This document shows positions 1,685 through 21,342 of a stretch of 21,657 nucleotides of DNA, piece after piece. This DNA is from a virus: positions 1 to 21,657 of IMG/VR virus record IMGVR_UViG_3300033146_000128. One strand, 5' to 3'. Position numbers and translations under genes: made by a program. Within the stretch, counting starts at the first letter, position 1; each line of letters opens with the position of its first letter. The notes beneath the pieces are model-generated. The model was given only the letters and a program-made list of their open reading frames with translations, ran no database searches and was not told the DNA's origin.

Positions 1685-3577
1685 TTAGCCAAAAACTTGT
1701 TTAAGGAGGGCAGACTCGTCATAAGCCACGTCGTTATGGTCATGCATAGCTTTAAATAACCCATCATCTATTTCATTCTCGTCATAAGGTTCTTTTATAA
1801 TTTCCATTGCAAACTTTTTAGCAGGACTCATTGGAAGATTCTCTAGAAAATCTTCTAACCACTCAGAATATTCATCTTCTTCATAGAATCTGCTTATATT
1901 TAATGTCGCCATTACTGTATCATCGTGTTTAGCTATACCTTTATATGTATTTTTAACTTTACCAAAAGAACCGAATTCTTCATACGAAGTCTTATCTTTG
2001 GGTATAAGAGTTTTAGCTTTTATTAATTTTCTGCCAAGTTTTACAAAGTAATTTTTATCTGATCTAGTTTTATATCCTGGTTTTTTTCTAGGAGGCTTTT
2101 CTCCTGGTATAGGAGCAGTATGATAACTATGCATCATTAAGTCATCATAAAATTCATCATGTGTTGATAGTTTCTGTAAAAATGATTTGCCATTGAAATT
2201 CATTTCAGTGACTAATTTACAAATCTCAGTTCCTAAATGTTCAAATATAACAGTTTGATTTATTTTGGCCATAATCTCTTCGTCATCTATATTATCTCTA
2301 TAAATACCAACCTGATTAATTCTAAATAAATTCTTGATAGTATGTTCGTCTTTTCGTAATGTTCTTAATTTAGCAAGACTTTTTAATTCAACAGAAAATA
2401 TATTTGTTATATTAAAGTCATTATCTTTGACTTCTTCTATATCTTTTCCTTCTGCTATATCATTAGCTAATATAAATCTAAATTCATTTTCATCAAAACC
2501 TGCATTAGGATCAAAATCTTTATGCCATAATAATTTATCTTTATATAACTCTTCGTCTAATGTACTGTTTTCTAAATCTTTATATACAAATTTAGAATGT
2601 ATTTTATTTAGCCATTTTAATTGATCTATATTCAATAATAGATTAGCTTGGCTATCAAAACTTAATTCATACTCTTGAGCAAATTCTTCCTCACCGAAAT
2701 CTCTTCTCATTTTTTCTACCCAAGCTTCATCCCTACCTTCTACTTCCCAATAATCTGTTCTTTTATTCACAAAAGAGTTTTTTCCTTTTGTAGACTTGTC
2801 CCATATATCAAAGAACAAATTAGTCATACCATTTGGTGTACTAGTTATTATGCATTGAGATACATCAGATGAACTAAGTGTGGGATAAACAGATCGCCAT
2901 AATGATTTAGATATATTATTAGGTATATGAGCAAATTCGTCTATATAAAGTAAATGAATAGTAAAACCAATAGATGCTGTTTTAGTTGTAGCTTGAGAAG
3001 ATAACATACATCCATTATCTAAAATAAGGCCAAGTTTACCAATATTATGGATGCCTGGTTTTAGGAAATAAGGAAGACCTCTGAATACATCAATAACCTT
3101 TCTGACAATTTCTGTTGTTGTTGCTTGTTTATTTGCTATTATTAAAAGGTTTCTATCATTATGAAAACATAAATACCAAGCAAAGAAAGCAGAAACTGTA
3201 GTAGTTTTGCCAATCTGTCTACTCGCCATCCAAATAATATTTCTTTCTTTTGGTGCAAAATCGTCAATTTTTTCTAAATATTCTTCTTCGCTAAATGTTT
3301 CCAAGACATCAGATTGATAATCTCTTAGCTGTACTGTCTTTTTACCTTCATCTGTTAGAAATTTACAATATTTACTAACAAAATAATTAACATCAACAGC
3401 ACATTTATTAAATTCATCTTGTTCTGCTGCTGATATCTTAAATCTTGTTTTTGCTTTTCTGAGCTCAGGATCACCTTCATAAAAACATGATAAGTCTACA
3501 TTATCTCCGCCTGTCCTAATATCCTTTTCTAAATCTGCTATATTCTCTGTTGTCCATGTTCTGCTGAAATTTGCCAT
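1685..3577 (-). CDS. terL: Terminase large subunit, T4 gp17-like packaging ATPase/nuclease
   Basis: DNA-packaging motor of the phage: it hydrolyses ATP to translocate DNA through the portal and cuts concatemers. The 630 residues match T4 gp17 in length (610) and motif order. Walker A is SRQIGKTT at residues 119-126, Walker B is LLYIDE at 209-214 with E214 as catalytic base, and the coupling motif ITSTPNG is at 244-250. The C-terminal nuclease shows the three acidic positions expected: D373 (ANDIAEG), E458 (TEMN) and D552/D553 (KHDDTVMA). The D373-E458 spacing is 85 residues against 57 in T4 gp17, so there is an insertion of charged sequence around 378-445. The gene starts one base after the TerS stop. 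A GAGG eight bases upstream is the only Shine-Dalgarno-like stretch I see at a start here, and it doubles as the last codons of terS. Confidence 0.97.
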   Translation of the reverse strand: MANFSRTWTTENIADLEKDIRTGGDNVDLSCFYEGDPELRKAKTRFKISAAEQDEFNKCAVDVNYFVSKYCKFLTDEGKKTVQLRDYQSDVLETFSEEEYLEKIDDFAPKERNIIWMASRQIGKTTTVSAFFAWYLCFHNDRNLLIIANKQATTTEIVRKVIDVFRGLPYFLKPGIHNIGKLGLILDNGCMLSSQATTKTASIGFTIHLLYIDEFAHIPNNISKSLWRSVYPTLSSSDVSQCIITSTPNGMTNLFFDIWDKSTKGKNSFVNKRTDYWEVEGRDEAWVEKMRRDFGEEEFAQEYELSFDSQANLLLNIDQLKWLNKIHSKFVYKDLENSTLDEELYKDKLLWHKDFDPNAGFDENEFRFILANDIAEGKDIEEVKDNDFNITNIFSVELKSLAKLRTLRKDEHTIKNLFRINQVGIYRDNIDDEEIMAKINQTVIFEHLGTEICKLVTEMNFNGKSFLQKLSTHDEFYDDLMMHSYHTAPIPGEKPPRKKPGYKTRSDKNYFVKLGRKLIKAKTLIPKDKTSYEEFGSFGKVKNTYKGIAKHDDTVMATLNISRFYEEDEYSEWLEDFLENLPMSPAKKFAMEIIKEPYDENEIDDGLFKAMHDHNDVAYDESALLKQVFG

Positions 3578-4216: not shown

Positions 4217-4783
4217 TTAATGTGTATTCGTTAATAATTTTTGATATTCTTCATTTGATGTAACTATATATGTAAAAGCACCTATCGTATATTTAACTTC
4301 TTCAAAATTCTGAAATATATAATCAGGTAATTCTTTTATACCAGTAGATTTAAGATTCAATTGATATGCACTAGCACCAAGTGGTATTCTTGTAATTTTA
4401 GGAACATCTCTTAGTATTATTTTCTTGGCTTTTAATATTTCAGGTAGATTAGTTAATTCTATACATCTAGCTAATCTGATTGTATCTGATGATATTATCT
4501 CCTTAGGCATTTTGATTAAATTTTCACAAGATACTATACGAACATATCCAACTTTTAATTTGTCAAATGGAATAATTTTCAAATTCTTATCATCTAAATA
4601 TAAATCATCAGTTTCTACAGATAAATCGTTGCCTATTTTAAACCCAGATTCAGCATCATATTTTTCAAACCAATTTTCTATCTTTTTCTTAAGAACTTTA
4701 CTTTTATAAGACACATCCAAGTCCATATCAGCATCTTCTGATGCATAAGGATCTATCATTTCGAATACTTTTTTTGCTTTCAT
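4217..4783 (-). CDS. Degenerate leucine-rich-repeat-like protein, paralogue of the next gene upstream
   Basis: 188 residues, function unknown. The first ~40 residues (MKAKKVFEMIDPYASE, then an aspartate-rich stretch, then a lysine-rich helix ending ENWFEKY) are clearly related to the start of the neighbouring 202-residue protein at 4786-5394. Most of the remainder has an irregular LRR-like rhythm (for example LTNLPEILKAKKIILRDVPKITRIP and LNLKSTGIKELP), with leucine/isoleucine followed by proline roughly every 20-23 residues. The repeats are much more eroded than in the paralogue. Stop and start overlap in the same TAATTATG arrangement on both sides. The gene sits between the neck protein and the small terminase, the place of gene 15 in T4, but I see no similarity to gp15. 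No signal peptide or membrane segment is visible. A virion, assembly or host-interaction role are all possible. Confidence 0.8.
   Translation of the reverse strand: MKAKKVFEMIDPYASEDADMDLDVSYKSKVLKKKIENWFEKYDAESGFKIGNDLSVETDDLYLDDKNLKIIPFDKLKVGYVRIVSCENLIKMPKEIISSDTIRLARCIELTNLPEILKAKKIILRDVPKITRIPLGASAYQLNLKSTGIKELPDYIFQNFEEVKYTIGAFTYIVTSNEEYQKLLTNTH
4660..4783 (-). repeat. Duplicated 5' gene segment, copy 2 (partner at 5270-5394)
   Basis: The first ~40 codons of this gene and of the one at 4786-5394 are near-identical over the first 16 codons (only silent or conservative changes, such as GCT/GCA and TAT/TTC). They stay similar through the WF motif. The upstream bases TAATT before each ATG are also identical. 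This indicates a gene duplication with faster divergence of the 3' part. Confidence 0.8.
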
Positions 4784-4785
4784 AA

Positions 4786-5394
4786 TTAAAAATCTTTATA
4801 TATGTTGCCTCCTACATCTAAATCATCAGGTAAGCTAGTTATTTTTGTCTGAGAAATGTCTAACCAACTACCTACTGTTAAATTTTTAGGAAGTTTAGTA
4901 ATTTTACACCTCATCAAATTAAGGTAACCTTCTGTTCTTAAATTATCAGGTAATCTTTCTACATCTGATTCAAATAAACTTAAATTACCTACAACCAAAT
5001 CATCTGGGATCATCTTTATAGGATTTTGGGATAAATTAAGAGTGCCTGCGACTATTAGATTACTAGGTAATTTGACAAAATCCATATTACATAAATCCAA
5101 TGAGCCATGTACTGTCAGATTAACTGGAAGTGTAGTTATATTTGTTTTTTGTATCTCGAGATGATTTTTTACTGTCATGTTATTTGGCAGTATGTCAACT
5201 TTTTTCTCTATTAAATCAAGAGTGCCATATACAGTTATAAAAAGATTTTCACCGCTTATATCATATTCATTATCAGGTGCCCATTTAGCAAACCAATCTT
5301 CGATAAGTTTCTTCTTATAACTTACGTCTAAGTCCATTGCATCTTCTTCTGATGCATAAGGATCTATCATTTCATATACTTTTTTAGCTTTCAT
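4786..5394 (-). CDS. Leucine-rich-repeat-like phage protein with seven ~20-residue repeats
   Basis: 202 residues. After an N-terminal module (residues 1-40, MKAKKVYEMIDPYASE...DWFAKW) shared with its downstream paralogue come repeats with a proline after leucine or isoleucine at about residues 69, 89, 109, 129, 148, 168 and 188. The unit reads roughly LP-xx-L-x-V-x-G-x-L-x-L-xxTxI. This regular 20-residue spacing predicts a small curved LRR-type solenoid, a fold used for protein binding. Repeats of this LP..L.V.G.L.L type occur in uncharacterised phage proteins; a precise role is not known to me. The protein ends only a few residues after the last repeat and has no capping domain. The gene begins two bases after the neck-protein stop and is followed two bases later by its paralogue, so it belongs to the packaging/neck operon and is expected to be expressed late. 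Confidence 0.85.
   Translation of the reverse strand: MKAKKVYEMIDPYASEEDAMDLDVSYKKKLIEDWFAKWAPDNEYDISGENLFITVYGTLDLIEKKVDILPNNMTVKNHLEIQKTNITTLPVNLTVHGSLDLCNMDFVKLPSNLIVAGTLNLSQNPIKMIPDDLVVGNLSLFESDVERLPDNLRTEGYLNLMRCKITKLPKNLTVGSWLDISQTKITSLPDDLDVGGNIYKDF
5270..5394 (-). repeat. Duplicated 5' gene segment, copy 1 (partner at 4660-4783)
   Basis: Codons 1-40 of this gene match those of the downstream paralogue at nucleotide level, most strongly over the first 16 codons. This shows that the two LRR-like genes arose by tandem duplication. Confidence 0.8.
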
Positions 5395-7072: not shown

Positions 7073-7075
7073 ACA
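7067..7075 (+). other. Exact DnaA-box 9-mer TTATCCACA in an intergenic gap
   Basis: A perfect match to the high-affinity bacterial DnaA box consensus (TTATNCACA). It abuts the 16-bp palindrome at 7076 and overlaps the promoter-like motif at 7060-7072. It is a single copy; one chance match in a window this size would not be surprising, so function is uncertain. Confidence 0.25.
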
Positions 7076-7111
7076 GAAAAATTGATCATATCAAAATATG
7101 ATCAATTTTTC
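7076..7111 (-). terminator. Perfect 16-bp inverted repeat, probable intrinsic terminator (possibly bidirectional)
   Basis: The arm GAAAAATTGATCATAT (7076-7091), a four-base loop (7092-7095) and its exact complement (7096-7111) form a 16-bp hairpin. Each arm ends in a run of five A or T, so a U-rich tract forms at the end of the stem in either direction. It follows the 165-residue gene (stop at 7127) and precedes the neck-protein gene, separating the fibre and packaging transcription units. Each arm contains TGATCA, and the whole stem is A/T-rich. Confidence 0.8.
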
Positions 7112-7126
7112 TATATTTTTTATCAC

Positions 7127-7665: not shown

Positions 7666-8031
7666 TCATTTATAAATGCCCAATTTTAAAAATATTTTTT
7701 TAAGATCTTTTTCTAAATCAGAAATACGTTTTTCTTGGGATTTTATTGTTTTTTCTTGGGATTTTATTTTATCATTCAATTCTCTGATAGCAGCTGTATT
7801 GTATGGAATTATTTCTTGATATCTAATTGTTTTATATTTTCCTTTTTGGCCAATTATTTCATGTTCAACTACAACTTCAGGGATAATATGTTCAACTTCT
7901 TGAGCTACAAATCCTATATGAACATCATCTCTATCTATAAATTTATATTCTATTGGGTTTAGTTTCAATACTTTATTTAAAGCTTTGCTTGGTATAATAT
8001 AATTTACATCTTTCTTTAATCTAATATCTGA
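7666..8031 (-). other. S74 intramolecular chaperone domain, predicted self-cleavage before Ser871
   Basis: This segment encodes residues 871-991 of the fibre. The Ser-Asp-Ile-Arg-Leu-Lys signature and the downstream GFVAQEVE motif are the two hallmarks of the family. The predicted released fragment has 121 residues and ends in a ~40-residue coiled coil suited to trimerisation. Confidence 0.88.
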
Positions 8032-10641
8032 TAAAGTAGAAGAAAATGCAACGATATCTCCTTTTGCGTGAAATGTAGATGCATCCCATCTAAAATTTTC
8101 AACTCCATCTGTAGATAGACTTATTCTGCCTGAAGTTCCTGTGTGAAAGAATCCAGTATTTGTATCACTTAACCAAGTAATAGTTGGGTCCGACGCCGAT
8201 CCATTAACACTTGTTCCTATTGATTTTTTAGTCCATAAATTACCATCAGAACTAAGTTGACCAATTACCCCATGGTTATTTTTCCAAACGAAACCTCTAT
8301 TAGTGCCACCATTCATAACAAAATACATATGATAATCAGTGTCATTAACTAAATTACCGCCCCATGTAGCATCGCTATCAGGAGACATATATATTTTATA
8401 TGAATCACTATTCCAAAATTTAATACCTCTTCCATATCCTTGTCCAACACTATAACCACCATAACTATAAACGGCATTAGTACCTGTATTTCTACATAAT
8501 ATAGCCCCATTAACATCTAATTTATACGCACTTGCAGGAGATGCTATGTTTAAACCAAAAGTACCATCTTTAGATAATACAGCTTTTTGAGTATTATTAG
8601 TATAAAATCTTAATTCTTTATCACTGTCAGTTTTTATTATACCATGACCACCTGTATTAGTTGCAATTGTAAATAAACCATCAGTTGTTCCATCATCTAT
8701 AACTAAACCATTAGCTGAATTAATTTTAACTTTACCAGAAGTTTGAATATTACCATTTACGTCTAATTGTTCAGTTGGTGTGGATGTGCCTATTCCAACT
8801 TTACCATCACCTTTAATTGTTAGCCTATTAACGTTGTTGGTTCTAACAATCAAGTCTGCATTCTGATAGTTGCTCAAGTACAAGTCATCAGATGTAGCTG
8901 ATGGATTACCGAAATACCAATTATCAACACCATCTTTAACCCCTCTTATATAACCTGTTTTTCCTGCTGGGTACCTTAAACTTAATAAATCTCCGCCAGC
9001 TGATCTATTAACAACTAATTGATTATTAACTGTTAATTTACCACTTGTTGAGTCATCCTCATCACTTCTTAAAAATTGTGCTGCATGTACAGTATCCAAA
9101 GTATCTGCATCTAATCCTGAACCTATTCCGACATTACCTTCATGCCATATTTTATTATATGTTTGTGTTCCAATTTTTTTAATATACGCTTCTCCTGGAT
9201 AAGTATCTAATGTAACTTTCCCTAAATAAGCAGAAAGAGTAACATCATTAGATGTTGTTCCATTTCTTCCAAATAGCCATGCTCTACCAGAACCATTATA
9301 AACATTACCTGAAACCAGTGAACCATATCCTTGTTTAGATTGAATATCTACACCTATTCCTGTTGATTCTCCTGTAATTGTTAATCTTCCATTTGAGTCT
9401 CTAGTCATACCTGAACTAGTATCAAATCTGCTTAATGTATTATTCCAAAAAGCAATACCAGTATCTGTTGGGTCATCTTCTCTTGTTGCAACTGATTGTG
9501 TACTTGCATCATCAAATGAAGGCCCTGTTTGTAATGGTGCAGTTCCTACTCTGAACGTTTCATTACTTTCATCATATAAAAATACATAAGGATCTGATGT
9601 ACCTCTATTTACGATTATACCTGATTGCATAGTTGCTGGAGGTGATCCAGTTTCTCCTGTATTTAAATTAATAAATGCACTAGATACATCTATAGTTTCT
9701 ACATCTCTTATATATAAAGATCCATCTATAATAACATCACCAGATACAGTTAATCCGTGATTTATAACTAAACTTCCATCTATAGTACCACCTGTTAATA
9801 ATAAATAATTCCCAGATGGATCTGAGCCATTAAATTTATCATCCACATATTTTTTATGAGTTAGCCAACGGTCATCAGTTGAAGAATATCCTAAATCTTT
9901 ATATCGTGCTCCAACAGAATCTGTATCTTCGATTACTATAGAATCTCCATCACTAGGATCCATTGTGATAGAATATGTTTTTGTTGACTTAGATGTTTTT
10001 AATAAAATTCCATCATAATGATTTAATTCAAAATGATTAGCAATATTATAACCAGTGTTTAAATTAAAGGTCCATAAGTTAAAACCTGTAGGACTTCCCT
10101 GAAAATACGTATCTAATGATGCATCTTTTTTAGCTCTCATATAAAATTGATCATTAGATAATCGTAGAAATGATAAATTATCAACATTATCAGCAGGAGC
10201 TGTCCATAATTGTATTAAATCATTTTCAAAAGTTGCTGTTGTGAAAGTATTTGGTGCAGTTATAACGCTTTTAGAGTTAATTCCATCATAATAAAAAATA
10301 GATGTGTCCCCGTAATTAATATTAAAAGAAGTTGAATCACTAAATAAATCTAATTTGTTACCTATTGACAAAATACTTCCATCAAAATCTAAACTGGAAG
10401 AATAGGAAAATCCATCACTTGATGAATTCATAAAAGGTATCTGAGAAACATCTCCATAATTGACAGAACCCGAGCCCTGGTGAGTAGATATATAATTTTT
10501 GATTGCATTTACTGTAGCTAAAGCAGAAGTATCTTCATAAGGCAGATTTCCGAAATCTGATGAATCTGTGATACCTAAAACTGGTTGAGAGTTTGATGGA
10601 TTACCTAATACTAATCCATTTTTAATTTTGAATTCGTTCAT
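7666..10641 (-). CDS. Trimeric tail fibre with C-terminal S74 self-cleaving intramolecular chaperone
   Basis: 991 residues; probably a host-binding fibre. Residues 275-300 carry the common fibre motif LLLTGGTIDGSLVI. Residues ~300-415 are a module shared with the 942- and 1156-residue fibres (SGIIVNRG, TFRVG, STQSVATRED, RFDTSSG). Residues ~497-527 contain IWHEGNVGIGSGLDADTLD...FLRSD, known from T4-type long tail fibres. VGIGTSTPTEQLDVNG is the repeat typical of beta-rich fibre shafts. The last 121 residues are a peptidase S74/endosialidase-type chaperone: SDIRLKK at 871-877, GFVAQEVEHIIPEVV around 910-924, then a coiled coil (KSQEKTIKSQEKRISDLEKDL). In this family the chaperone trimerises the fibre and cleaves itself off just before the serine, here predicted before Ser871. 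The gene lies behind its own terminator-promoter gap, so it can be transcribed separately from the upstream fibre genes. Confidence 0.9.
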   Translation of the reverse strand: MNEFKIKNGLVLGNPSNSQPVLGITDSSDFGNLPYEDTSALATVNAIKNYISTHQGSGSVNYGDVSQIPFMNSSSDGFSYSSSLDFDGSILSIGNKLDLFSDSTSFNINYGDTSIFYYDGINSKSVITAPNTFTTATFENDLIQLWTAPADNVDNLSFLRLSNDQFYMRAKKDASLDTYFQGSPTGFNLWTFNLNTGYNIANHFELNHYDGILLKTSKSTKTYSITMDPSDGDSIVIEDTDSVGARYKDLGYSSTDDRWLTHKKYVDDKFNGSDPSGNYLLLTGGTIDGSLVINHGLTVSGDVIIDGSLYIRDVETIDVSSAFINLNTGETGSPPATMQSGIIVNRGTSDPYVFLYDESNETFRVGTAPLQTGPSFDDASTQSVATREDDPTDTGIAFWNNTLSRFDTSSGMTRDSNGRLTITGESTGIGVDIQSKQGYGSLVSGNVYNGSGRAWLFGRNGTTSNDVTLSAYLGKVTLDTYPGEAYIKKIGTQTYNKIWHEGNVGIGSGLDADTLDTVHAAQFLRSDEDDSTSGKLTVNNQLVVNRSAGGDLLSLRYPAGKTGYIRGVKDGVDNWYFGNPSATSDDLYLSNYQNADLIVRTNNVNRLTIKGDGKVGIGTSTPTEQLDVNGNIQTSGKVKINSANGLVIDDGTTDGLFTIATNTGGHGIIKTDSDKELRFYTNNTQKAVLSKDGTFGLNIASPASAYKLDVNGAILCRNTGTNAVYSYGGYSVGQGYGRGIKFWNSDSYKIYMSPDSDATWGGNLVNDTDYHMYFVMNGGTNRGFVWKNNHGVIGQLSSDGNLWTKKSIGTSVNGSASDPTITWLSDTNTGFFHTGTSGRISLSTDGVENFRWDASTFHAKGDIVAFSSTLSDIRLKKDVNYIIPSKALNKVLKLNPIEYKFIDRDDVHIGFVAQEVEHIIPEVVVEHEIIGQKGKYKTIRYQEIIPYNTAAIRELNDKIKSQEKTIKSQEKRISDLEKDLKKIFLKLGIYK

Positions 10642-10760: not shown

Positions 10761-13589
10761 TTAACCAGTAATTATATAATTAATTGTTCCAGCTAATGAT
10801 CCAGATACCCAACTAAATGTAACATCTCCTGATCCATTAATAGAAATCCCGACTTCTACTAAGTCAGTTCCTTCATATACAGAAATATTATAATATCCTT
10901 GAGCTATTTGATGGGTTGCTTGAGTAATAGTAATAGTATCAATACCAGTAGACGAGAAAGATCCAGTGTACTTATGAACTGTAGTTGTACTATCAGCAGC
11001 ATTAATAGTTATAGTAGAACTATCTGATGTAAATGTAACTCCTGTACCAGGTACTAATTGCTTAATTAAAGCAGTTCCCGTAGGACTTTCTTCTGCATAT
11101 ACATTTTTAGCTCCTGTAGCTCCAGAAACTGTAGATGCAACAGCATCAATTTTATCATTAAATGTGTCCCAATCTGTTGAGCTTAAATAACCATCTGTTG
11201 ATGTATTCGCTTGGTCAATTGAAATTGCCATAGTAGATAAAACTTGATCAGCTCCAGATACATTAATAGGACCTGTTCCAGTTGCAGTAACTGCGTCAGT
11301 AAATGCTGTGTCAGATAATTCTCTAACTCCAACAGAACCATCTGTATCGATAACTAATGCAGTATTTTCTGTGGCCATTGTGACCATACTTGAAGTTATA
11401 GCCAGACCTCTGTTTAATACTAATTGATTAGCATTTAATTCTAAATCAGTAGTAGTATCAAATCTATTAGCAGTTGCATTCCAATATGGAATTGCTAAAG
11501 ACCCAGGGGTATTTTCTCTTGTTGCTACTGCTTGAGAATTACCAGGTAATCCTGATTCGTTTTCTATACCAATTCTGAATGTATCAGATGATTCTTCAAA
11601 TACAAACATATAATCATTAGCAGTTCCTCTGTCAATTCTGATACCAGCATATCCTTTAGATACTCCAGCTCCAGTTTCGCCAACGTTTACACTAATAATA
11701 TTATCAGATACATCTAAATCTACAGAATTTATATAAGTTAACGAACCATCTACTGTTAAATTACCGTGGATTTTAGTTTCTCCTGTTATACTAAATACAA
11801 ATCCTTGAGTATTTATATCAGTATTTTGAATTAAATCACCACCTATACCTATTGAATTATCACCACCTGAACCAATTGCTTCTAAACCATTCATATGCTG
11901 AGGAATATTAGCTACCCCTTGTATATCATCACCTTCTATGAATAATGTATTATCATTTGTATCTCTTTTGATTCTGATATCTCCTGAACCGAAAGCAGTT
12001 GCAGAAGCTACAGAAACTAATGAATCTGATGTTATTTCTGCTACATCTACTTTTAATTCATGTGAAGCATTTCTATATACAGATACGTCATTAGTAATAG
12101 ATTTAGAGGTTACAATACCATCAACGATATCATCAGAATCTAATCTAATATTACCAACTCCATCATCAATTTTTGCAAATACTGCATTACCAGCAACTGT
12201 TGATGTATTAGTTATATCTAAATCAAATGCATTAGATGTTTCTGAAATACCAATACCTGCTGTAGGTATTGAATCCCAAACTGCTTTAGCGGTAGGTAAT
12301 TCAGAATCTGTAGATGCTGCTGTAACTGAAGTACTAATAGCATTAACAGTGTTTGAATTCATTGTTAAATTAGCAAGTGTTAAAGTTCCACTGATTGTTG
12401 CATCATTAGATACATTTAATCCAGTTCCTGCCGCAGTAATTGCTAAAGCACCTGTCATTGTATCACCGGCAAGTTCTACGTAATCAGCATCTGATTTAAA
12501 CGCCATACCTCCTAATGTAGTAGTTCCAAGAACTCCATTAATATGAGAAACTATAGTAGTTTGTTCAGATTGAGCCTGTAAACCTGCGAATGTTAATGTG
12601 TTAGCAGCTGTAGTTGTAATAGTTGTAGCTTCAGTTAAAGCAGAGCCTAATCCATATGAACCATCAGTTAAAATTTGAAGACCGTTGCCAGCTCCTCTAT
12701 TAGCTGCTGCTCCAACACCATCAGCGTAAGTCTTAACTGATTGCCAATCTGGAATAGATCTATTGCTATAACTACTAGATGGATAATCTCCCTCGTATTC
12801 TGCAGCATAGGTTCCGCCCCTTGCATCACCATTAATATAGGTTCTACCTGCAATTATTTTAATACTTCCACTTGTCTGAGATCCTAACCTAATTATCTCA
12901 TTTGATCCTTCTCCTCCGGATGCGGCGGATATGACAATCGATTGACTATAATCAGTGCTGTTATTAGCAGCTAAAGTTAATGAATGATAGGTTGAAGTAT
13001 TATCATATTCAAAAATAGCGGTAGATTGATCATATATTGCTAAATCATTTGTATTTAAATCTATACTTGTATCTTTAGATAATATTCCTCCAAATTGAAT
13101 ATCTCCTTCTACTTCATTTAAACCATTGCTAGCTGTAACTCCTGCCGAAATCGCAGAGTCAACTAATGATTTTACTGCTCCTGATGTAGGAATTGCTGTG
13201 TCTAAACTAGAAACTCCGTCTGTTGATGTATCAATAGTAGTAATAGTTACACTATCTAATGCTACTCCACCGGTATTATCAAGGACTAAACCTCCTGTTA
13301 AGGTTCCACCTGCTAATTCTAGGAATTTTCCATCCACTTCTGAACGTGGGTAATAATTTGTAGAGGCTTCCCAGGCCATTGTACCTAAGGTTCTTTCTCT
13401 AACGGAGCCAGTAGCTCCTTCTAAAATCAATGCTCGAGGAGTATCAACTGTTGAAGTTGTTAAAGCTGTAGTAAATTGTAATGCTTTATCTCCTCCTCCT
13501 GCTAATATTAACGATGCGTCGATTGTTAATTGATTATGGGATTCTAAAATTCCATGAAAATCAATCCTTGGTTGTACGTACTTTGCCAT
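10761..13589 (-). CDS. Large modular tail fibre/adhesin
   Basis: 942 residues, low-complexity and rich in Thr, Ser, Asp and Ala with beta rhythm, as in phage fibre shafts. Two internal segments look related: LGTMAWEAS...LELAGGTLTGGLVL (around 71-100) and LGGMAFKSD...VELAGDTMTGALAI (around 357-385). Each contains the phage-fibre motif G-x-T-x-T-G-x-L and is followed by a ...TDxELPTAKAV/TSGAVKS-type helix. Residues ~612-720 are the middle module shared with the 991- and 1156-residue fibres (SGIRIDRG-like, TFRIG, SQAVATREN, RFDTTTD). The last ~70 residues (from HKYTGSF) form a small beta domain ending YIITG that recalls the C-terminus of the 239-residue protein. No S74 chaperone is present, so trimerisation must rely on another domain or a separate factor. 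A classical terminator follows the stop. I infer a structural, receptor-binding role. Confidence 0.82.
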   Translation of the reverse strand: MAKYVQPRIDFHGILESHNQLTIDASLILAGGGDKALQFTTALTTSTVDTPRALILEGATGSVRERTLGTMAWEASTNYYPRSEVDGKFLELAGGTLTGGLVLDNTGGVALDSVTITTIDTSTDGVSSLDTAIPTSGAVKSLVDSAISAGVTASNGLNEVEGDIQFGGILSKDTSIDLNTNDLAIYDQSTAIFEYDNTSTYHSLTLAANNSTDYSQSIVISAASGGEGSNEIIRLGSQTSGSIKIIAGRTYINGDARGGTYAAEYEGDYPSSSYSNRSIPDWQSVKTYADGVGAAANRGAGNGLQILTDGSYGLGSALTEATTITTTAANTLTFAGLQAQSEQTTIVSHINGVLGTTTLGGMAFKSDADYVELAGDTMTGALAITAAGTGLNVSNDATISGTLTLANLTMNSNTVNAISTSVTAASTDSELPTAKAVWDSIPTAGIGISETSNAFDLDITNTSTVAGNAVFAKIDDGVGNIRLDSDDIVDGIVTSKSITNDVSVYRNASHELKVDVAEITSDSLVSVASATAFGSGDIRIKRDTNDNTLFIEGDDIQGVANIPQHMNGLEAIGSGGDNSIGIGGDLIQNTDINTQGFVFSITGETKIHGNLTVDGSLTYINSVDLDVSDNIISVNVGETGAGVSKGYAGIRIDRGTANDYMFVFEESSDTFRIGIENESGLPGNSQAVATRENTPGSLAIPYWNATANRFDTTTDLELNANQLVLNRGLAITSSMVTMATENTALVIDTDGSVGVRELSDTAFTDAVTATGTGPINVSGADQVLSTMAISIDQANTSTDGYLSSTDWDTFNDKIDAVASTVSGATGAKNVYAEESPTGTALIKQLVPGTGVTFTSDSSTITINAADSTTTVHKYTGSFSSTGIDTITITQATHQIAQGYYNISVYEGTDLVEVGISINGSGDVTFSWVSGSLAGTINYIITG

Positions 13590-13640: not shown

Positions 13641-14360
13641 TTAAAATCCCAATATAACTATTTCATAATTAACTCCAATATTAGGAGCTTCGTTAAAAAT
13701 AATTATATCTGAATTCAATCCTCGGATTAGACCCGGATAAATAACTTCATTTGTGTTATCAAATACTGTTATATTCTGTCTTAATGTATTTAAGCTATGA
13801 TCTACTACAAAAGATGAAGTAGTTCCATTACCTGTTAATGTTCCATCATAAGCTTTTAATGGATATGATCCATCAATAGCAAAAATACTTCCATCAGTAG
13901 CATAGATAGCACCATTTAATGTATCTATCTTTAATGATTCTAGGGTAATGTGGCCTGCTGTAACATTTGCGTATGTAGATCCATCGAATTTAACTACTTC
14001 TAAATTACCAGAAACGTCTTTTAATATTACTCCATTTTCGTCATTATTTAATTGGAATGTAGCAGATGAAGTACCCGTTAGATTTATAGAAGAATCACTG
14101 TTTAATTTTAACCATGAATCATGAGTTGTGTAATTAGTTTCATCTATTAAAAAATACACTCCATTATTAGCTGTATTAGAATCAGATGTAACAGAAACCA
14201 ACATTCCTTTATATAACCAAATATTATTATTGGTATCTTCCCAGACAGTACTGGAAATTAAATCATTTTTAGTGCCAACTATTATCCTCGCGTCTAATGG
14301 AGCTTTAGTTAAAACTTCAAAATTTGACGAAAAATTAAATGTTCCCTTATTTCTACTCAT
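13641..14360 (-). CDS. Short virion/fibre protein with MSRNKG N-terminal domain
   Basis: 239 residues. Residues 1-84 align without gaps to the N-terminus of the 665-residue protein at 17870-19867, with 51 of 84 positions identical by hand count (MSRNKGTFNF, PLDAR, NIWL, NNG.YFL are invariant). A shared N-terminus on otherwise different proteins suggests a virion-attachment domain. The middle (90-170) is fibre-like beta sequence. Residues 176-239 (FVVDHSLNTLRQNITVFDNT...NYEIVILGF) resemble the small C-terminal beta domain often found on phage fibre and baseplate proteins, with H-x-L followed by a V-x-V-x-D strand. It starts 18 bases after the stop of the 1156-residue fibre gene. It could be a short fibre or a cap/adaptor, and it may be a shortened paralogue of the 665-residue protein. 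Confidence 0.8.
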   Translation of the reverse strand: MSRNKGTFNFSSNFEVLTKAPLDARIIVGTKNDLISSTVWEDTNNNIWLYKGMLVSVTSDSNTANNGVYFLIDETNYTTHDSWLKLNSDSSINLTGTSSATFQLNNDENGVILKDVSGNLEVVKFDGSTYANVTAGHITLESLKIDTLNGAIYATDGSIFAIDGSYPLKAYDGTLTGNGTTSSFVVDHSLNTLRQNITVFDNTNEVIYPGLIRGLNSDIIIFNEAPNIGVNYEIVILGF

Positions 14361-15227
14361 TAAATTTTAAAATTTATTTTAAAATACCAATCTAATTTTG
14401 ATATCACTTCTGTCTGTTCCATTATATACATAATTATCATAACTTATATTTTGACTATGTAAAGTTCTTGTTGTTGATGTTACAGTCCAATGGGTTAATG
14501 AACTAGCTCCAGTTCCCCCTGTATATTCCCAAGTATTAGAAGCAGTACTAAATGTTTGTATACCTGTGATAGATCTATTAGTAGGAGCTCCTGTCCATGC
14601 CTGAGCAATAGAAAATGACTGTTTATTGCCTCCTGTTTCTGGTACCATTTCAATTTCTATATTATTACCAGTTAGCATTGAAACTAATGGCTGTAATGTA
14701 TAAACTGATATAGATGAAGTAGTTGCATACAAAGGATAAACTCCCTCTATCGAGATATTTTTATTTGTAGTAGTTCCTGCATTCAAAGGACTATCTACAT
14801 TATTATTTTTATTATCTTTTGGCTGAGGCCCTTCTTGATATGAAATAGTATTAGTAAAAGCCTGTGTTCCTATATTTATCAAATAACCTGTTATAGTCTG
14901 AACATTAGTTAATGATGTAGAATTAGTATTTACTAATAATGTATTCGAAGATGGATCTGTGTAAGTGTATACACTTGCATCACCAGATCTATAATCTTGG
15001 AATGTTCCATTTACTAAAATTTCCCCTTTGTCTAAAGCTGCAGTAAATGTAATATTTATAGAATCTCCTATTTCTTGTAAAGTATTAACGTTATCAGTAA
15101 ATGTATTATCTGGATTAACATAGGTTGGATTTATGGTAGGAAAAAGTAATTCATCCCACATTTTAATTAATGCATCCCCCTTCAAATCAGATACAGCTGT
15201 GCCTGCTGGTAAACCTCCTACTGTATT
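14109..15227 (-). repeat. Duplicated gene-junction block, copy B (partner at 19616-20712)
   Basis: The block covers the last 282 codons of the 1156-residue gene, an 18-base gap and the first 84 codons of the 239-residue gene. The same arrangement occurs at 19616-20712. Similarity extends through the junction itself: both copies read ATTTTAAAATAA at the stop of the first gene. The duplication therefore crosses a gene boundary. Confidence 0.82.
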
Positions 15228-17849
15228 AGGCATTTCAAGACTAGCATCTAATGTGGTATCATAAATAGGTTCTGAGCCATAATTACCATATTCAATAGCT
15301 CCCATATCAATAATATTATTATTGATACGTAAATTATTTGCATAATCTAAATCAAGATTTATTAAATTTCCTACCCTAGTTTTTATAAAATTATAAAGAG
15401 TATTATCGCCTGCATCTATTGATACAGAACCAGATACTGGAGAATAATCACCATTTGATGGATCTTTTAATGATACTGAAGTATTTTTAATATTATCAGT
15501 GTCTATTATTATACCATTATCTTTATTAAAATTACCTTCTATGATATTATATGTAACTTCTACAAAAGAAGTATTTCCTGTATCAATCTTAATTGAATTA
15601 GTATTACCTTCTATAATATTATTAGAAACTTTAAATGTATGTACATCCTCATCTAATACAATATCATTACCATTTTTATTATTATAAAATGTGTTATTAG
15701 TAATATAAGTTTGATAGTCGGCAGTGTTTACAACACAACCATTAGATACTCCATTTTCATTACCATCAAATATATTATTATTTACATATAATTCAAAATT
15801 ATCACCATCATCATTAACAGATATTGCAGTTCCAAATGTTCCAATATTATTCTTAAATTTGCTGTGGTTTATAACTAAAGGTCTATTATTTGCGTCATAA
15901 TAAGAAAAATTGTATATGCCAATACCTCCGGACCAGTCATAACCTGTAGAAGGGTTTACATTACCGTATACATCAATATTATCTACTATTCCTGAAATAT
16001 TAAATAAAGCTAGACCTGAAATCTTAGCAGATGTATTATTATAAATAGACGAATCTTTTATAATAATATTTCCTTCTATTTTACCAGCACCACCCCAAGA
16101 CAATGAAGTATTATTATGAATTTCAGCATGTGAAAATTCTATAACTCCTTTATCTGTATAAATACCACCATAATTAGAAGCTAAACCTTCAGTTAATTCA
16201 CTGTTGGTAAATTTTATAGATTTATGATTTTTAAGAAATACAATAGCTCCTTGATTTTGAGTATCAAATGAATCAGATATAGCTCCATTTGCGTATCCCT
16301 TTTCTATTTTTATTCCATCTATTATTACATTATCTATTCCATATCCATATACAACATGATATGAATAGTTAGAAGGATCTCCACTATCAATATCTCCAGA
16401 TAATACAGTGTTTAATGAGTTTAATGTTCTTATATCTTTTGAATATTCACCTCCTTTAAATCCTCCATAAATATTAACACCAGATTTAAGATTAAAATAT
16501 ACATCTCTATTAGTGCTTATTGTTGTTGGATAATATATTCCTTCTGCTATCCAAATTTCATCATTGTATTTTGCATCATCTAAAGCTTCTACTAAAGTTA
16601 AATAAGCATCTGTCCAAGATGCGCCTGTCTGTGACCCTGATGCAGAATGATTAACATAAATAATAGTTCCTATTCTTAATTTGTCAGCACTTGCTTCTAT
16701 TAATTTGTCAAGAGCTAATGAAATTGTACTTGGATCTATTCCTACTTCTTCTATCCATAAACTAGGGTCAGACGAATTATATGAAATATCTGATGCATCA
16801 ATAGCACTAAAATCAACTTGTAAATTTCCTGAACTATCCCATTCTAAAGAAGAACCTATACTAGATTCTAATACAAAAGAAGGTAGTTGTTTAGATTGTA
16901 ATGTTCCATTAGAATCAACTGTAACATAATATCCATCATTTCCTGATAATTGGGAAATTCTTAATGAACCATCAATAAATAAACCACTTGCATCAAAGAT
17001 TAATCCTGATGATGTATCAAATCTACTTAATGTTTCATTCCATATAGTAAGTGCATTTGTAATAGGATTATCCTCTCGTGTTGCTACTGCCTGTGTAGAA
17101 GCGTCAATATATGAAGAACCATCTAATGTTGAAATTCCAATTCTAAAAGTATCTTTAGTTTCATCAAATACAAATACATATGGGTCTTCGGAACCACGTT
17201 CTACTACTATACCTGACTGTAGCCATTCAGGTGGTGTAATATTATTAGGTAAACCAGTATTTAATTTAATATAATTAGTAGAAACATCAACAGTAACTGT
17301 GTCTAGTATTGTAGTTGAACCATCAACCGTTAAATTACCGCCAATAGATAAATTGCCATCTATAATAGAATTGCCACCAATAGATAAATCATTAGTAATT
17401 GATACTCCAGTAACTGTTAAGTCACCTGTCATTGTATCTCCATCTTTTCTAACATAATCTCCTAAACTAGATTCTATGTCAGAGTATTTCCCATAAAGAT
17501 CCGAAACTGATGAATCTAAATATCCAACAGAAGTTTCTAAATTATCGACTCTTGTAACTAGATCACCTAATGATGAATCTACGTTACTTCCCATCTTTTC
17601 CCAAGTATTAGGTTTACCTTGTTTAAACCATTCTCGATCTATATTTCCGGATGGATCTAATTGAGCATATCTAGTACTAATAGGTGAATTATAAATTAAA
17701 AATTCTCCAGATGTAGGGGATGCACTTGAACTTGCGGTATTTGGATTAGCATTAAATGTTAATAGACTACCATTAGGCATAGTTGTAGTAGGTTTAAATA
17801 CTATAACCCTTCTTTCCATTTCAAATCCTAATTCTTCTAGTGTTGCCAT
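14379..17849 (-). CDS. Modular tail fibre/tailspike with embedded right-handed beta-helix (choice-of-anchor Q-like)
   Basis: 1156 residues, four parts in order. Residues 1-135: N-terminal region with a heptad-like stretch (VDNLETSVGYLDSSVSDL), then DTMTGDLTVTG and short DLSIGG/NLSIGG repeats. Residues ~173-287: the middle module shared with two other fibres (SGIVVERG, TFRIG, STQAVATRED, RFDTSSG). Residues ~397-856: a complete bacterial-type right-handed beta-helix, opening with IYVNHSASG...GASWTDAYLTLVEAL and DEIWIAEGIYYPT. It continues with VNIYGGFKGGE and LSGDIDSGDPSN, many N-N-x-I/F-x-x-N rungs, and closes with SIDAGDN and IDMGAIEYG. Residues 875-1156: C-terminal domain shared with the 486-residue protein (EGVYPL, WEYTGG, IKIRL). 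The helix is a good candidate for carbohydrate binding or cleavage, but I cannot identify catalytic residues. This is the longest gene of the window and probably a major host-range determinant. Confidence 0.87.
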   Translation of the reverse strand: MATLEELGFEMERRVIVFKPTTTMPNGSLLTFNANPNTASSSASPTSGEFLIYNSPISTRYAQLDPSGNIDREWFKQGKPNTWEKMGSNVDSSLGDLVTRVDNLETSVGYLDSSVSDLYGKYSDIESSLGDYVRKDGDTMTGDLTVTGVSITNDLSIGGNSIIDGNLSIGGNLTVDGSTTILDTVTVDVSTNYIKLNTGLPNNITPPEWLQSGIVVERGSEDPYVFVFDETKDTFRIGISTLDGSSYIDASTQAVATREDNPITNALTIWNETLSRFDTSSGLIFDASGLFIDGSLRISQLSGNDGYYVTVDSNGTLQSKQLPSFVLESSIGSSLEWDSSGNLQVDFSAIDASDISYNSSDPSLWIEEVGIDPSTISLALDKLIEASADKLRIGTIIYVNHSASGSQTGASWTDAYLTLVEALDDAKYNDEIWIAEGIYYPTTISTNRDVYFNLKSGVNIYGGFKGGEYSKDIRTLNSLNTVLSGDIDSGDPSNYSYHVVYGYGIDNVIIDGIKIEKGYANGAISDSFDTQNQGAIVFLKNHKSIKFTNSELTEGLASNYGGIYTDKGVIEFSHAEIHNNTSLSWGGAGKIEGNIIIKDSSIYNNTSAKISGLALFNISGIVDNIDVYGNVNPSTGYDWSGGIGIYNFSYYDANNRPLVINHSKFKNNIGTFGTAISVNDDGDNFELYVNNNIFDGNENGVSNGCVVNTADYQTYITNNTFYNNKNGNDIVLDEDVHTFKVSNNIIEGNTNSIKIDTGNTSFVEVTYNIIEGNFNKDNGIIIDTDNIKNTSVSLKDPSNGDYSPVSGSVSIDAGDNTLYNFIKTRVGNLINLDLDYANNLRINNNIIDMGAIEYGNYGSEPIYDTTLDASLEMPNTVGGLPAGTAVSDLKGDALIKMWDELLFPTINPTYVNPDNTFTDNVNTLQEIGDSINITFTAALDKGEILVNGTFQDYRSGDASVYTYTDPSSNTLLVNTNSTSLTNVQTITGYLINIGTQAFTNTISYQEGPQPKDNKNNNVDSPLNAGTTTNKNISIEGVYPLYATTSSISVYTLQPLVSMLTGNNIEIEMVPETGGNKQSFSIAQAWTGAPTNRSITGIQTFSTASNTWEYTGGTGASSLTHWTVTSTTRTLHSQNISYDNYVYNGTDRSDIKIRLVF
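15285..16660 (-). other. Beta-helix domain of the 1156-residue fibre
   Basis: Encodes about residues 397-855. The opening (Y-V-N...S-W-T-D-A, D-E-I-W-I-A-E-G-I-Y) and closing (S-I-D-A-G-D-N ... D-M-G-A-I-E-Y) signatures are those of the choice-of-anchor Q/polymorphic-outer-membrane-like beta-helices of secreted bacterial proteins. They bracket a long series of asparagine-rich rungs. Confidence 0.8.
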
Positions 17850-17869
17850 ATATTTTTATTATTTTTTTA

Positions 17870-19867
17870 TTATATTGTTTCTGCTATTGTTATAGTACTA
17901 GCTTGTGATGATGACTCAGCAGCATTAGTATCTAAAATATTCACAGAAGTTGGATTATTATCCAATTGATCTATTGTCCAAGCATTTGCATCTGATACTG
18001 CTGATGTTGTTCCAACTGGTCTTTTTACTGTTAATGATTTAACTGACCAATTTAATGTATTAGATATTTTACCATAATCCGAAACTGCTACATTTATTGT
18101 AGCAGAAGTTCCGAATGCAGCAACTGCAACAGTTCTAGTTTTAAATCCACCTAATGTATATTGAGTTTGCCCTGTATTTGAAACAACAGTTTGCCCTGCT
18201 AAATTAGTTGCAGTAAAAGATCCCCATGTGAATTGACCCTTATCATGGTCATCATCTACATTTAATGTATTAGTATATGTAATATGATTAGCAGTGTTAA
18301 ATGTACTACTAGATGCCCATACACCAGCATTAGCTACATTATTTAATGTAACATTTGCAGTACTTAATAATCTTTGTGTAGATACTATAGTTATTGTGTG
18401 ATTTGCTATAGTAGTTCCATCATTACCTCCAGATATCATTCTAGTAGGAGAACTTATTGATATAGTTGCATTTGTATCTGCTATATTTACTACAGCAGAA
18501 GCAGAATTAGTAGCTCCATTTGCGGTTCGTGTTGCAGAAATTGCAAAATTAGAAGTAGAAACATTATAACTTCCAGAAGAATAAGTTACAGTTTTTGGAG
18601 ATTCGCTAGTAGTGCTGTTTGTTATCGTTAATTCAGAATTTGGTGATGAATAATTATATACATCTGCGTTTGAAATAGAATTAACAACCGTAGCATTTTC
18701 TCCTGATTTTATTGCTTCTTGACCAGCTGGATAAGAAATAGATCCAATAGTAATAGTTGGATGGGTGTTATTTAATTTAACTGTATTAGTACCATCAACA
18801 GAACCGGCTGTACTACTTGTAAACCATGAACTCCATGTTCCTGTTGATTTTTTAATTCTAATTCTAAATCCTAAATCTTGTGTAGAATTCCCTCTATTTG
18901 CAATAACTAAATTATTTATTATAAAACTATTTGATGATGTTATTGATGTTTCTGATTTTACTTTAAAAGCACCATAATTCTCTATTTCGTAAGCAACTAC
19001 AGCTACATCAGATGTTATACTTACAGAATATACATCATTTTCTTTTAATTCAGTCTGGGTTCCTGGGTATCCTCCAGTAAATGTAGCAGTCTGAACAATT
19101 GGCGGGTTATCATAAGAAATTGCTAGTGTATCTGACGCTCCATCTTCATGAATCACTTTTAAAGTAGATGCATCATCTAAATCAAATGCTAATGTTCCTG
19201 TGAAAATAGGTCTATCTGAATTTTCTGTTAAAGATACTATTGAACCATCTATTGTTACAACTGGTTTATAATTAGTATTACCAGGCAAAGCTAAAATATG
19301 AAGATTAACATCATTTGTTGATGTAGTTAATGATTCTATCACTCTACCATCAGATGAATATACTTTATCTCCTACATTATCATTTGTATTAATTGGTGTT
19401 ACGTCTGAAAACCAAACTCCACCATTTACTCCAAAATTATCACCTTCTATTCCTATTACTATTTGGTTGCCTACTTGAGTTACCACAATAGGTCCACTTC
19501 CAGAGATAGTTCGTAATGATATATTTCCGCTAGAATCAAATCCCGCAAAAACACCAGCCGAACCATCTCCAATATTTACAACTCCTATACTAACATCTGA
19601 ATTAGACCCAGCTAATACCCAATTATCAATATCAGTGTAGTTAACTGCATCTTTTAGAAAATAAATACCATTATTTTCAACAGAGGCATCTGCCGAAACT
19701 GATACTATTGCGCCATCAAAAAGCCAAATATTTGAATTATTATCTTGCCATGTTAAGGGATTAGTTAAATCTGATTTAGATCCTACTAACATTCTTGCGT
19801 CCAGTGGAGCTTTAGCTAAAACTTCAAAGTTTGCTGCAAAATTAAATGTTCCTTTATTTCTTGACAT
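17870..19867 (-). CDS. Virion structural protein with MSRNKG N-terminal domain and Ig-like/beta-rich repeats
   Basis: 665 residues. Residues 1-84 are the domain shared with the 239-residue protein (61% identity by hand count) and probably anchor the protein to the virion. Residues ~90-140 contain a short fibre-type linker (DGSAGVFAGFDSSGNISLRTISGSGPIVV). From ~190 to the end the sequence is Ser/Thr-rich with evenly spaced hydrophobic strands, best explained as several Ig-like beta domains. Landmarks are TVTYSSGSYNVSTSNFAISA, GNDGTTIANHTITI, GQFTWGSFTATNLAG, YTLGGFKTRTV and WTIDQL. The overall pattern reminds me of large uncharacterised structural proteins of marine T4-like phages, but I cannot confirm it. 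No catalytic motif, signal peptide or membrane segment is seen. It lies 14 bases downstream of the 486-residue gene and 20 bases before the beta-helix fibre gene, so it belongs to the same fibre operon. Confidence 0.8.
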   Translation of the reverse strand: MSRNKGTFNFAANFEVLAKAPLDARMLVGSKSDLTNPLTWQDNNSNIWLFDGAIVSVSADASVENNGIYFLKDAVNYTDIDNWVLAGSNSDVSIGVVNIGDGSAGVFAGFDSSGNISLRTISGSGPIVVTQVGNQIVIGIEGDNFGVNGGVWFSDVTPINTNDNVGDKVYSSDGRVIESLTTSTNDVNLHILALPGNTNYKPVVTIDGSIVSLTENSDRPIFTGTLAFDLDDASTLKVIHEDGASDTLAISYDNPPIVQTATFTGGYPGTQTELKENDVYSVSITSDVAVVAYEIENYGAFKVKSETSITSSNSFIINNLVIANRGNSTQDLGFRIRIKKSTGTWSSWFTSSTAGSVDGTNTVKLNNTHPTITIGSISYPAGQEAIKSGENATVVNSISNADVYNYSSPNSELTITNSTTSESPKTVTYSSGSYNVSTSNFAISATRTANGATNSASAVVNIADTNATISISSPTRMISGGNDGTTIANHTITIVSTQRLLSTANVTLNNVANAGVWASSSTFNTANHITYTNTLNVDDDHDKGQFTWGSFTATNLAGQTVVSNTGQTQYTLGGFKTRTVAVAAFGTSATINVAVSDYGKISNTLNWSVKSLTVKRPVGTTSAVSDANAWTIDQLDNNPTSVNILDTNAAESSSQASTITIAETI

Positions 19868-20712
19868 ATTATATTGTTATTTTAAAATTTTAATCTTATT
19901 TTTATTGTACTTCTATCTACACCATTATATATGTAATTAGTATAATCTATAGGTATAGAAAAGATATCTCTTTGTTCTGGTATAGTAGTCCATAAATCCA
20001 ATGAAGCTGATGCAGAACCTCCAGTATATTCCCAATTTCCGCTAAATTCATTATAAGTTTCTACTCCTAGCAAAGGTCTAGATGATGTCCAACTAACAGG
20101 TACAGAAAATCTTTGTTTCATACCACCTGTTTCTGTTACCATTTCAAATTCTATATTATTAGAATATAACATAGATTGCAAAGGTTGTTGTGTATATGTA
20201 TTTATATCTATAGTAGTTCCAAACAATGGATAAACTCCTTCTAGAGATTTAGAAACATTTGAAGTGGTCCCCGCAGGTAAAGATGAATCATATGAACCTC
20301 CTTTACTATCTAGTGGTTGCTCACCTTCATCATAAGAAACTCTAGATAACCACGTTTGGGTTCCTTGTGCAACAATATACCCCGGGATGAATTGATAATC
20401 TACTAAACTAGTCGTTAAAATATTATTAACAGTTCCTGTAGTATCTGTAAAATGATACGTATTAGGTAAACCGCTTCTATTACCAGAAGTTCCATAAGCG
20501 GGGTTTATAAATCCCCTATTAAAATTAGAAGTAAATTCTATATCAATAGAATTTCCTATTATTTCTAAATTATTTACATCAAAAGAAAAAGTATTATAAG
20601 GATTTGAAAAATTCGGATAAAGAGTAGGATAAAACATAGATGCCATTGTATCTGCAAAGGTTTTTCCGTCATCGAAAAATGTATCTCCTGCATGAATACC
20701 TCCAACTGTATT
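19616..20712 (-). repeat. Duplicated gene-junction block, copy A (partner at 14109-15227)
   Basis: Covers the last 276 codons of the 486-residue gene, a 14-base gap and the first 84 codons of the 665-residue gene. Protein similarity to copy B is obvious on both sides of the junction (EGVYPL, ETGG.KQ, WEYTGG, IKIRL, then MSRNKGTFNF), and the nucleotides at the stop codon match. Confidence 0.82.
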
Positions 20713-21342
20713 TACAACCGGGTCTGGATTCTCATAAGAAGCACCTGATCCCCCGTCTGAAGAAATTATAATAGACGAGCTGTCTTCTTGAAATGAAATA
20801 CCATCACCTGGCTTTAAACCTTTAAATACAAATGTAGTTCCATCGGAAGAATCTTCTCTATGTGAAAATAAATCATAAACAGAAGGATCTTCTGTTGTCT
20901 TTATGCCTAAATCTGAAAATGGTCCTGTGTGATTTAATCTGTTTAAAAAATATTCAGGAAAGTCGTATTTCAAATAAGCAGATTCACTAACATCAACAGG
21001 TTGATATTCCATATTACCAGGTAATTCCTGTTTATCAAATAAATCGAAAAATATAAAAAATGAAGTAATGTCATAAAAGCCAGATACAGGTTTTTCGTAC
21101 CTGACTTGAATATAGAATTCTGTATCAGGAACAAACGAAATAGAAGCCATATTAATCTGTGTAAGATCTTGATAAGGTTCCCAATTTATATTATCAAACG
21201 AAATCCTAAAATCTTTATTGACAAAATCTCCATAATTTGATCCTATCCTAAAGTAATTAATATTTTTAATATCTTTTAATGGCTCAGAGTTTGCGAATTG
21301 TATATGTGTACTAGTATACTCTCTCTGTAGTTGATATTGCAT
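19882..21342 (-). CDS. Virion protein sharing its C-terminal domain with the beta-helix fibre
   Basis: 486 residues. Residues 1-~165 are a unique beta-rich domain (SFDNINWEPYQDL, TEFYIQVRYEKPVSG, FFIFFDLFD) that may bind a baseplate or fibre partner. A linker with FVFKGLKPGDGISFQED...IIISSDGG follows. Residues 211-486 are homologous to residues 875-1156 of the 1156-residue fibre; roughly half of the last 120 positions are identical by eye, including EGVYPL, NNIE.EMV.ETGG.KQ, WEYTGG and YNG.DRS.IKIRL.F. The same C-terminal domain on a fibre and on this smaller protein suggests a common docking or oligomerisation role. The stop is 14 bases before the 665-residue gene. The start at 21342 has an A/T leader (AAAAGATTAGAAAATG) without a clear ribosome-binding site. 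Function is inferred from domain sharing and position only. Confidence 0.8.
   Translation of the reverse strand: MQYQLQREYTSTHIQFANSEPLKDIKNINYFRIGSNYGDFVNKDFRISFDNINWEPYQDLTQINMASISFVPDTEFYIQVRYEKPVSGFYDITSFFIFFDLFDKQELPGNMEYQPVDVSESAYLKYDFPEYFLNRLNHTGPFSDLGIKTTEDPSVYDLFSHREDSSDGTTFVFKGLKPGDGISFQEDSSSIIISSDGGSGASYENPDPVVNTVGGIHAGDTFFDDGKTFADTMASMFYPTLYPNFSNPYNTFSFDVNNLEIIGNSIDIEFTSNFNRGFINPAYGTSGNRSGLPNTYHFTDTTGTVNNILTTSLVDYQFIPGYIVAQGTQTWLSRVSYDEGEQPLDSKGGSYDSSLPAGTTSNVSKSLEGVYPLFGTTIDINTYTQQPLQSMLYSNNIEFEMVTETGGMKQRFSVPVSWTSSRPLLGVETYNEFSGNWEYTGGSASASLDLWTTIPEQRDIFSIPIDYTNYIYNGVDRSTIKIRLKF

Follow-up and report, generated by a model that had tools for sequence, protein, structure and literature searches.

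Consecutive fibre proteins of the phage described here are probably coupled to one another by a recurring junction, in which the C-terminal domain (CTD) of one protein is followed across the gene boundary by the N-terminal domain (NTD) of the next, and this junction would double as a recombination seam. On a broader reading, which we judge an even call, phages, probably of Bacteroidota, build serial fibres of variable protein number from at least two class-matched plug-and-socket joints that are new at the domain level; recombination at these joints would add, delete or swap segments, and two classes could coexist in one genome and thereby fix the order of the parts.

Two related joints in one fibre gene chain

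The window, the whole 21.7-kb viral contig analysed here (30% G+C), encodes a tail sheath protein (3-1571) and a large terminase (1685-3577), the latter being closest to Prevotella Lak megaphages (39%). All genes lie on the minus strand and are read in the order g486, g665, g1156, g239, g942 and onwards (Table 1). We assign g486, g665, g1156 and g239 to the fibre of this virion by their gene neighbourhood and by related annotations. Blastp finds the N-terminal part of g486 in the first proteins of the related loci L016, L017, L020, L022 and L024, and homologues of the tip-like domain of g239 occur in the proteins that end the chain in L016, L017, L020 and L024. For g665, a full-length relative exists in a 779-aa protein of L022 (43%). 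The boundary between g665 and g1156, with a g665-type end and a g1156-type start, is present in L022 too and may be another kind of joint.

Table 1. Positions of the fibre genes, their domains and the gaps between them in the window.
Feature	Position	Strand	Evidence
g486 (486 aa), opens the fibre chain, with CTD copy 1 at its C-terminus	19882..21342	-	ORF
CTD copy 1 (g486 residues 201-486), proposed socket	19885..20742	-	blastp 45.5% vs CTD copy 2; HMM score 318
Joint 1 gap, g486/g665, 14 nt	19868..19881	-	
g665 (665 aa), second fibre protein	17870..19867	-	ORF
NTD copy 1 (g665 residues 1-84), proposed plug	19616..19867	-	51/84 identical to copy 2; HMM score 121
g665/g1156 gap, 20 nt	17850..17869	-	
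g1156 (1156 aa), third fibre protein, ends in CTD copy 2	14379..17849	-	ORF
g1156 residues 1-98, homologous (52%) to the start of the 229-aa gene of L022 (residues 1-96)	17556..17849	-	blastp
CTD copy 2 (g1156 residues 869-1156)	14382..15245	-	blastp to copy 1; HMM score 313
Joint 2 gap, g1156/g239, 18 nt	14361..14378	-	
g239 (239 aa), last fibre protein of the chain	13641..14360	-	ORF
NTD copy 2 (g239 residues 1-84)	14109..14360	-	HMM score 124; AF2 model pLDDT 81.5
g239 residues 95-239, tip-like domain	13644..14078	-	40% to the 229-aa gene of L022 (its residues 91-229)

An earlier note on this DNA had claimed that a block spanning a gene boundary is duplicated in the two gene pairs, and such a block is indeed present in both, at a similarity far above chance. 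The CTDs of g486 (residues 201-486) and g1156 (residues 869-1156) are 45.5% identical over 292 columns (E 2e-71). Residues 1-84 of g665 and g239 align without gaps at 51 identical positions, whereas the next 60 residues share only 5. The nucleotide similarity across the junction that the claim implied is found as well: an alignment of 641 columns at 67% (E 3e-40; window 19635-20248 against 14128-14756) spans both stop/start boundaries, and an extra 75-nt piece of DNA similarity lies deeper within the CTD. The cargo flanking the two joints is unrelated (best E 0.77 upstream and 0.46 downstream). The word duplicated holds in the sense of old paralogy but not of a recent local event. A recent tandem duplication in this genome was rejected, as neither the CTD tree nor the NTD tree places the two joints as sisters; they are old paralogues at different fibre positions. 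The stop-codon context that the note had reported as shared is likewise real: ATTTTAAAATAA, made up of a Phe codon, the stop and the A/T-rich start of the gap, stands at 19877-19888 and 14374-14385 and is unique to these two sites in the window. However, since the sequence of the intergenic gap is not conserved among the joints of relatives, this match carries little weight and was rejected as a signal.

Pairing and class matching in relatives

Two seed alignments served as the starting point for the relatives. The first of these were the human-faecal phage MT835470, with a gap of 8 nt, and the crAss-like phages cr4_1 (domains in adjacent genes), cr125_1 (an abutting gene pair at the NTD match) and cr11_1 (CTD and NTD within one protein). 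IMG/VR was scanned with CTD and NTD separately, GTDB genomes were scanned in addition, and the results were read with iterated HMMs, yielding 60 different contigs, among them one GTDB locus, in an Alistipes MAG, that is paired too. A class-A NTD comes next in 40 of the 44 contigs found with the CTD, and a CTD is directly upstream or fused in 24 of the 24 found with the NTD, although these contig counts include near-identical sets (e.g. L050-L053 and L031-L035) and the independent number is smaller; 47 joints are left below 90% CTD identity. The four remaining CTD-found contigs comprise L072 with a class-B NTD, L014 with a divergent NTD supported by BLAST, and L010 and L015 with only NTD-like starts. 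Several apparently unpaired cases were dismissed, being artefacts of broken frames or of the gene caller (L029, L030, L059, L068, L070 and L113) or, for the second CTD of L025, having an NTD past the edge of the locus. A search of 26 whole records, 2.6 Mb in total and the longest of 323 kb, gave 30 NTDs, every one adjoining a CTD and none unlinked. The head-to-tail co-occurrence suspected from the window is thus essentially universal, and the opposite arrangement, the two domains in unlinked genes, has no example among these records in the form of a lone NTD. Gaps at adjacent joints measure between -16 and 21 nt, apart from a single gap of 67 nt.

A second class of joint, CTD-B followed by NTD-B, occurs in 29 loci and is paired in all 29; both classes occur in L019, with one joint apiece. 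Homology between NTD-B and NTD-A was not found by hhalign (probability 3%). The nearest relative of a given CTD at another locus has the same NTD class in 59/59 cases for class A and 40/40 for class B, together 99/99 valid cases, a count that leaves out L018, L021 and L084, whose apparent class mismatches arose from a stretch further downstream that the class-B seed had taken in. That CTD class predicts NTD class so regularly agrees with the idea of a matched pair of domains, as does the co-divergence of CTD and NTD (r=0.74 against a shuffled maximum of 0.19, 47 joints).

It is conceivable that the pair reflects nothing but synteny, that is, two unrelated neighbouring fibre genes with joint vertical inheritance. 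Neighbouring virion genes often remain together, and the correlation of CTD and NTD distances is partly shared ancestry. However, single genomes carry two copies of the pair, it is spread over crAss-like phages, this sheath-bearing phage and records of more than 300 kb, the cargo to either side of it is unrelated, and it moves between phages as a block. As a full explanation synteny is refuted by the within-genome copies and the exchange of cargo, and we hold it to be very improbable.

Chains, fusions and exchange of cargo

Class-A daisy chains, in which a CTD-NTD joint is followed by another, exist in five genomes (L016/L039, L020, L007, L054 and L069). Only the middle proteins of these chains carry both an NTD and a CTD, the first protein being without an NTD and the last without a CTD, and the four proteins of the window fit this pattern at both ends. 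In six records (cr11_1 gp44 and L031-L035) the joint is naturally fused as CTD, a linker of ~52 residues and NTD. The NTD had been suggested to be a virion-anchoring partner, a role that is not supported. Because it always comes after a CTD, also inside polypeptides, and because the first protein of a chain begins otherwise, the NTD is better regarded as the link to the preceding fibre protein.

One could still imagine that the NTD anchors each fibre protein to the virion and that the CTD serves as a tip or folding domain common to their C-termini, in which case the boundary would look duplicated only because tandem fibre genes resemble each other at either end. Fibres often have a conserved anchor at the N-terminus and a folding domain at the C-terminus (PMC6872550), and middle chain proteins do have an NTD at the start and a CTD at the end. 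Yet the first and last chain proteins, those of the window among them, lack the NTD and the CTD, respectively, an NTD and a CTD share one protein in few cases against ~100 CTD-NTD neighbours, the CTD is non-terminal and the NTD not N-terminal in fusions, and the class of a CTD foretells that of the NTD in the next protein. We therefore consider such an anchor-and-tip arrangement unlikely. An intramolecular chaperone of the S74 type at the fibre C-terminus was also rejected: Pfam gives no match at all in g486 or g1156, and Peptidase_S74 is present in g991 only.

That the moving unit is the junction rather than a gene, as the earlier note had argued, is borne out by L008 and L063, which share the joint over 1,222 nt at 90.8%, while nearby genes are 68-69% identical and the protein ends outside the block are unrelated. 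The proposed swap of the parts on either side is seen more generally, since at a CTD identity of 45-55% the cargo is unrelated in 125/142 upstream pairs (88%) and 127/147 downstream pairs (86%). A single 229-aa gene of L022 consists of the g1156 N-terminus (52% over 98 residues) and the g239 tip (40% over 145; E 7e-29 and 4e-29), and at the matching point the window has cargo and a joint splitting two genes. If middle proteins are gained or lost through recombination at joints, hybrids are further to be expected, and L017 is such a case. In the NTD tree, the NTDs that precede a g239-type tip (window, L017, L020, L024 and L039) group together (94/90), whereas in the CTD tree the sole CTD of L017 falls with the first joints of L020 (94/92), so that its CTD sides with 'first' joints and its NTD with 'last' ones. 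By these trees the two halves of a joint are not strictly inseparable, and L017 looks as expected for recombination within joints of one class.

These exchanges raise the possibility that the boundary is kept solely as a crossover site for fibre gene swaps, with contact between the domains being unnecessary. The DNA block of L008 and L063 stops near the joint borders and cargo is exchanged on both sides, as such a seam would have it. However, at CTD identities of 25-45% most joints have diverged too far for recombination, and yet the domains and their order persist, the intergenic DNA is not conserved, and fusions retain both domains without a gene boundary, all of which makes a pure seam decidedly improbable. 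A coupling of consecutive fibre proteins, on the other hand, explains the pairing, order, class matching, fusions, chains and the split gene jointly.

Structural models and database searches

The CTD fold is mostly beta according to the model of a relative. AlphaFold2 predicts for the natural fusion L031 a confident, mostly beta CTD, a confident NTD core and a disordered linker (pTM 0.56), with no confident CTD-NTD packing in this single-chain model, which cannot show a joint between trimers. The NTD is made up of a conserved N-terminal peptide of 25 residues and a small beta domain; modelled in isolation, the latter (residues 26-87) comes after a 25-residue low-confidence stretch. Residues 1-25 have the lowest entropy (1.27 vs 1.9) and yet a pLDDT of 55-72, a pattern expected, as far as the models go, for a peptide that folds on its partner.

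No family in Pfam or PHROGs covers the CTD or the NTD, neither has a sequence match in the PDB, and Foldseek against solved structures returned no relative of either at E <= 0.001; weak tailspike matches of the NTD (E 1.2) were not significant. Against predicted viral proteins, Foldseek recovered cr11_1, cr125_1, a Tenacibaculum phage and others. A description of the CTD-NTD pair was not found in the open-access literature.

Comparison with known docking systems

In modular polyketide synthases, a C-terminal docking domain pairs with the N-terminal one of the next protein, in matched classes that follow the gene order and sometimes fused. Co-occurrence, fixed order, class match and natural fusion (cr11_1 gp44, L031-L035), which are marks of a matched docking pair, are found for CTD and NTD, but polyketide synthase docking domains are short, helical and part of enzymes, and the analogy is one without homology. 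The T4 long tail fibre is a further parallel, its gene order following the order of the fibre. Its proteins gp34-gp35-gp36-gp37 are placed end to end, one C-terminus meeting the next protein (PMC5537660). The knee of T4 is single and fixed and contains gp35 as an additional protein, whereas here an interchangeable pair is repeated, and CTD and NTD have no PDB sequence or fold match to the gp34 C-terminus, gp35 or gp36.

Anchor-branched RBP systems (G7C gp66/gp63.1, SP6/K1-5 and Klebsiella phages) use an N-proximal T4gp10-like domain as the socket and often a peptide of 7-29 residues as the plug (PMC6872550). They resemble the present joint in having a docking domain on one protein and a conserved N-terminal element on the next, with the adhesive parts swapped (PMC6872550); here, this element is the 84-aa NTD, most conserved in residues 1-25. 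They differ from it in that here the socket is C-terminal and ~286 aa long, the plug has 84 aa, the genes abut, and joints are repeated serially and fused; a T4gp10-like docking domain was not found in the CTD by Pfam, PHROG or PDB sequence searches or by fold at E <= 0.001. In crAss001, residues 1-26 of gp22 dock into gp38/gp39, the tail fibre docking hub, and gp22 meets further fibre proteins (PMC10172136). There too, a trimeric fibre protein is docked to a receptor by a short segment at its N-terminus, but the hub serves attachment to the tail, and CTD and NTD were not found in bases 1-50000 of this phage, which hold the genes of its solved virion, so that crAss001 was rejected as a solved example of the joint. 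By analogy, we infer that the joint works like the docking of anchor-branched RBPs combined with the end-to-end fibre of T4.

Proposed mechanism and significance

We propose that the C-terminal domain of one fibre protein is a socket that would take the plug, the N-terminal domain of the next, whose first ~25 residues, the most conserved ones, are predicted to remain unfolded until bound and would be the likely binding residues; in oligomeric state and stoichiometry, the joint may be one between trimers. Gene order would equal protein order along the fibre, presumably from proximal to distal, with g486, joint 1, g665, another boundary, g1156, joint 2 and the g239 tip. Joints of one class could recombine homologously, within a genome or between phages, and thereby insert, delete or replace whole segments, possibly with consequences for host range. 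As the gene boundary has the socket immediately on one side and the plug on the other, such recombination would always leave a socket facing a plug.

Fibre adapters are usually recognised per phage group, and mostly as N-terminal anchors. Here, two uncatalogued domains form one recurring joint, single, double or fused, in matched classes. If binding is confirmed, the joint would explain how fibres of several proteins can acquire and shed segments and still assemble, and it would make the order of fibre proteins readable from sequence and give names to many unannotated proteins. It also makes testable how mosaic recombination spares multi-protein machines.

Other features of the window

Three genes of the window, g991, g942 and g1156 (named by their length in residues), have in common a segment of ~200 residues ('...ERGSEDPYVFVFDETKDTFRIG...ATRED' is an example) that lies at a different position in each and is 26-35% identical. 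This is another mobile fibre segment, distinct from the joint formed by the C-terminal domain (CTD) closing one fibre gene and the N-terminal domain (NTD) opening the next. The middle of g1156 (15400-16700) is an N/S-rich repetitive stretch that by eye resembles the right-handed beta-helix of tailspikes; Pfam gave no match for it.

The fibre gene g665 (17870-19867) has a match to PHROG 15433 (E 2e-124), a family that carries the label 'tail sheath'. That label may be wrong, since g665 looks like a fibre gene in this setting and the window's sheath gene lies elsewhere (3-1571).

The tandem paralogues g188 and g202 are 34% identical over 156 aa, with start regions 86% identical in DNA, and by eye appear leucine-rich-repeat-like.

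Coordinates of additional features in the window
Feature	Position	Description
g188	4217-4783	tandem paralogue of g202
g202	4786-5394	tandem paralogue of g188
Palindrome	7075-7112	38 nt, near-perfect, terminator-like; between g550 and g165
g991	7666-10641	carries ~200-residue segment
g942	10761-13589	carries ~200-residue segment
g1156	14379-17849	carries ~200-residue segment

The boundary between a g665-type end and a g1156-type start is kept in both the window (17850-17869) and the related locus L022 (L022:5856-5873), where it may represent yet another type of joint. Upstream of the class-A chain of a second related locus, L020, lies a weak class-B-like CTD (L020:3-811). The protein start that comes after it, 'DIPLDVRY...YWYEGMQVY', is again NTD-like, a hint that more classes of joint exist.
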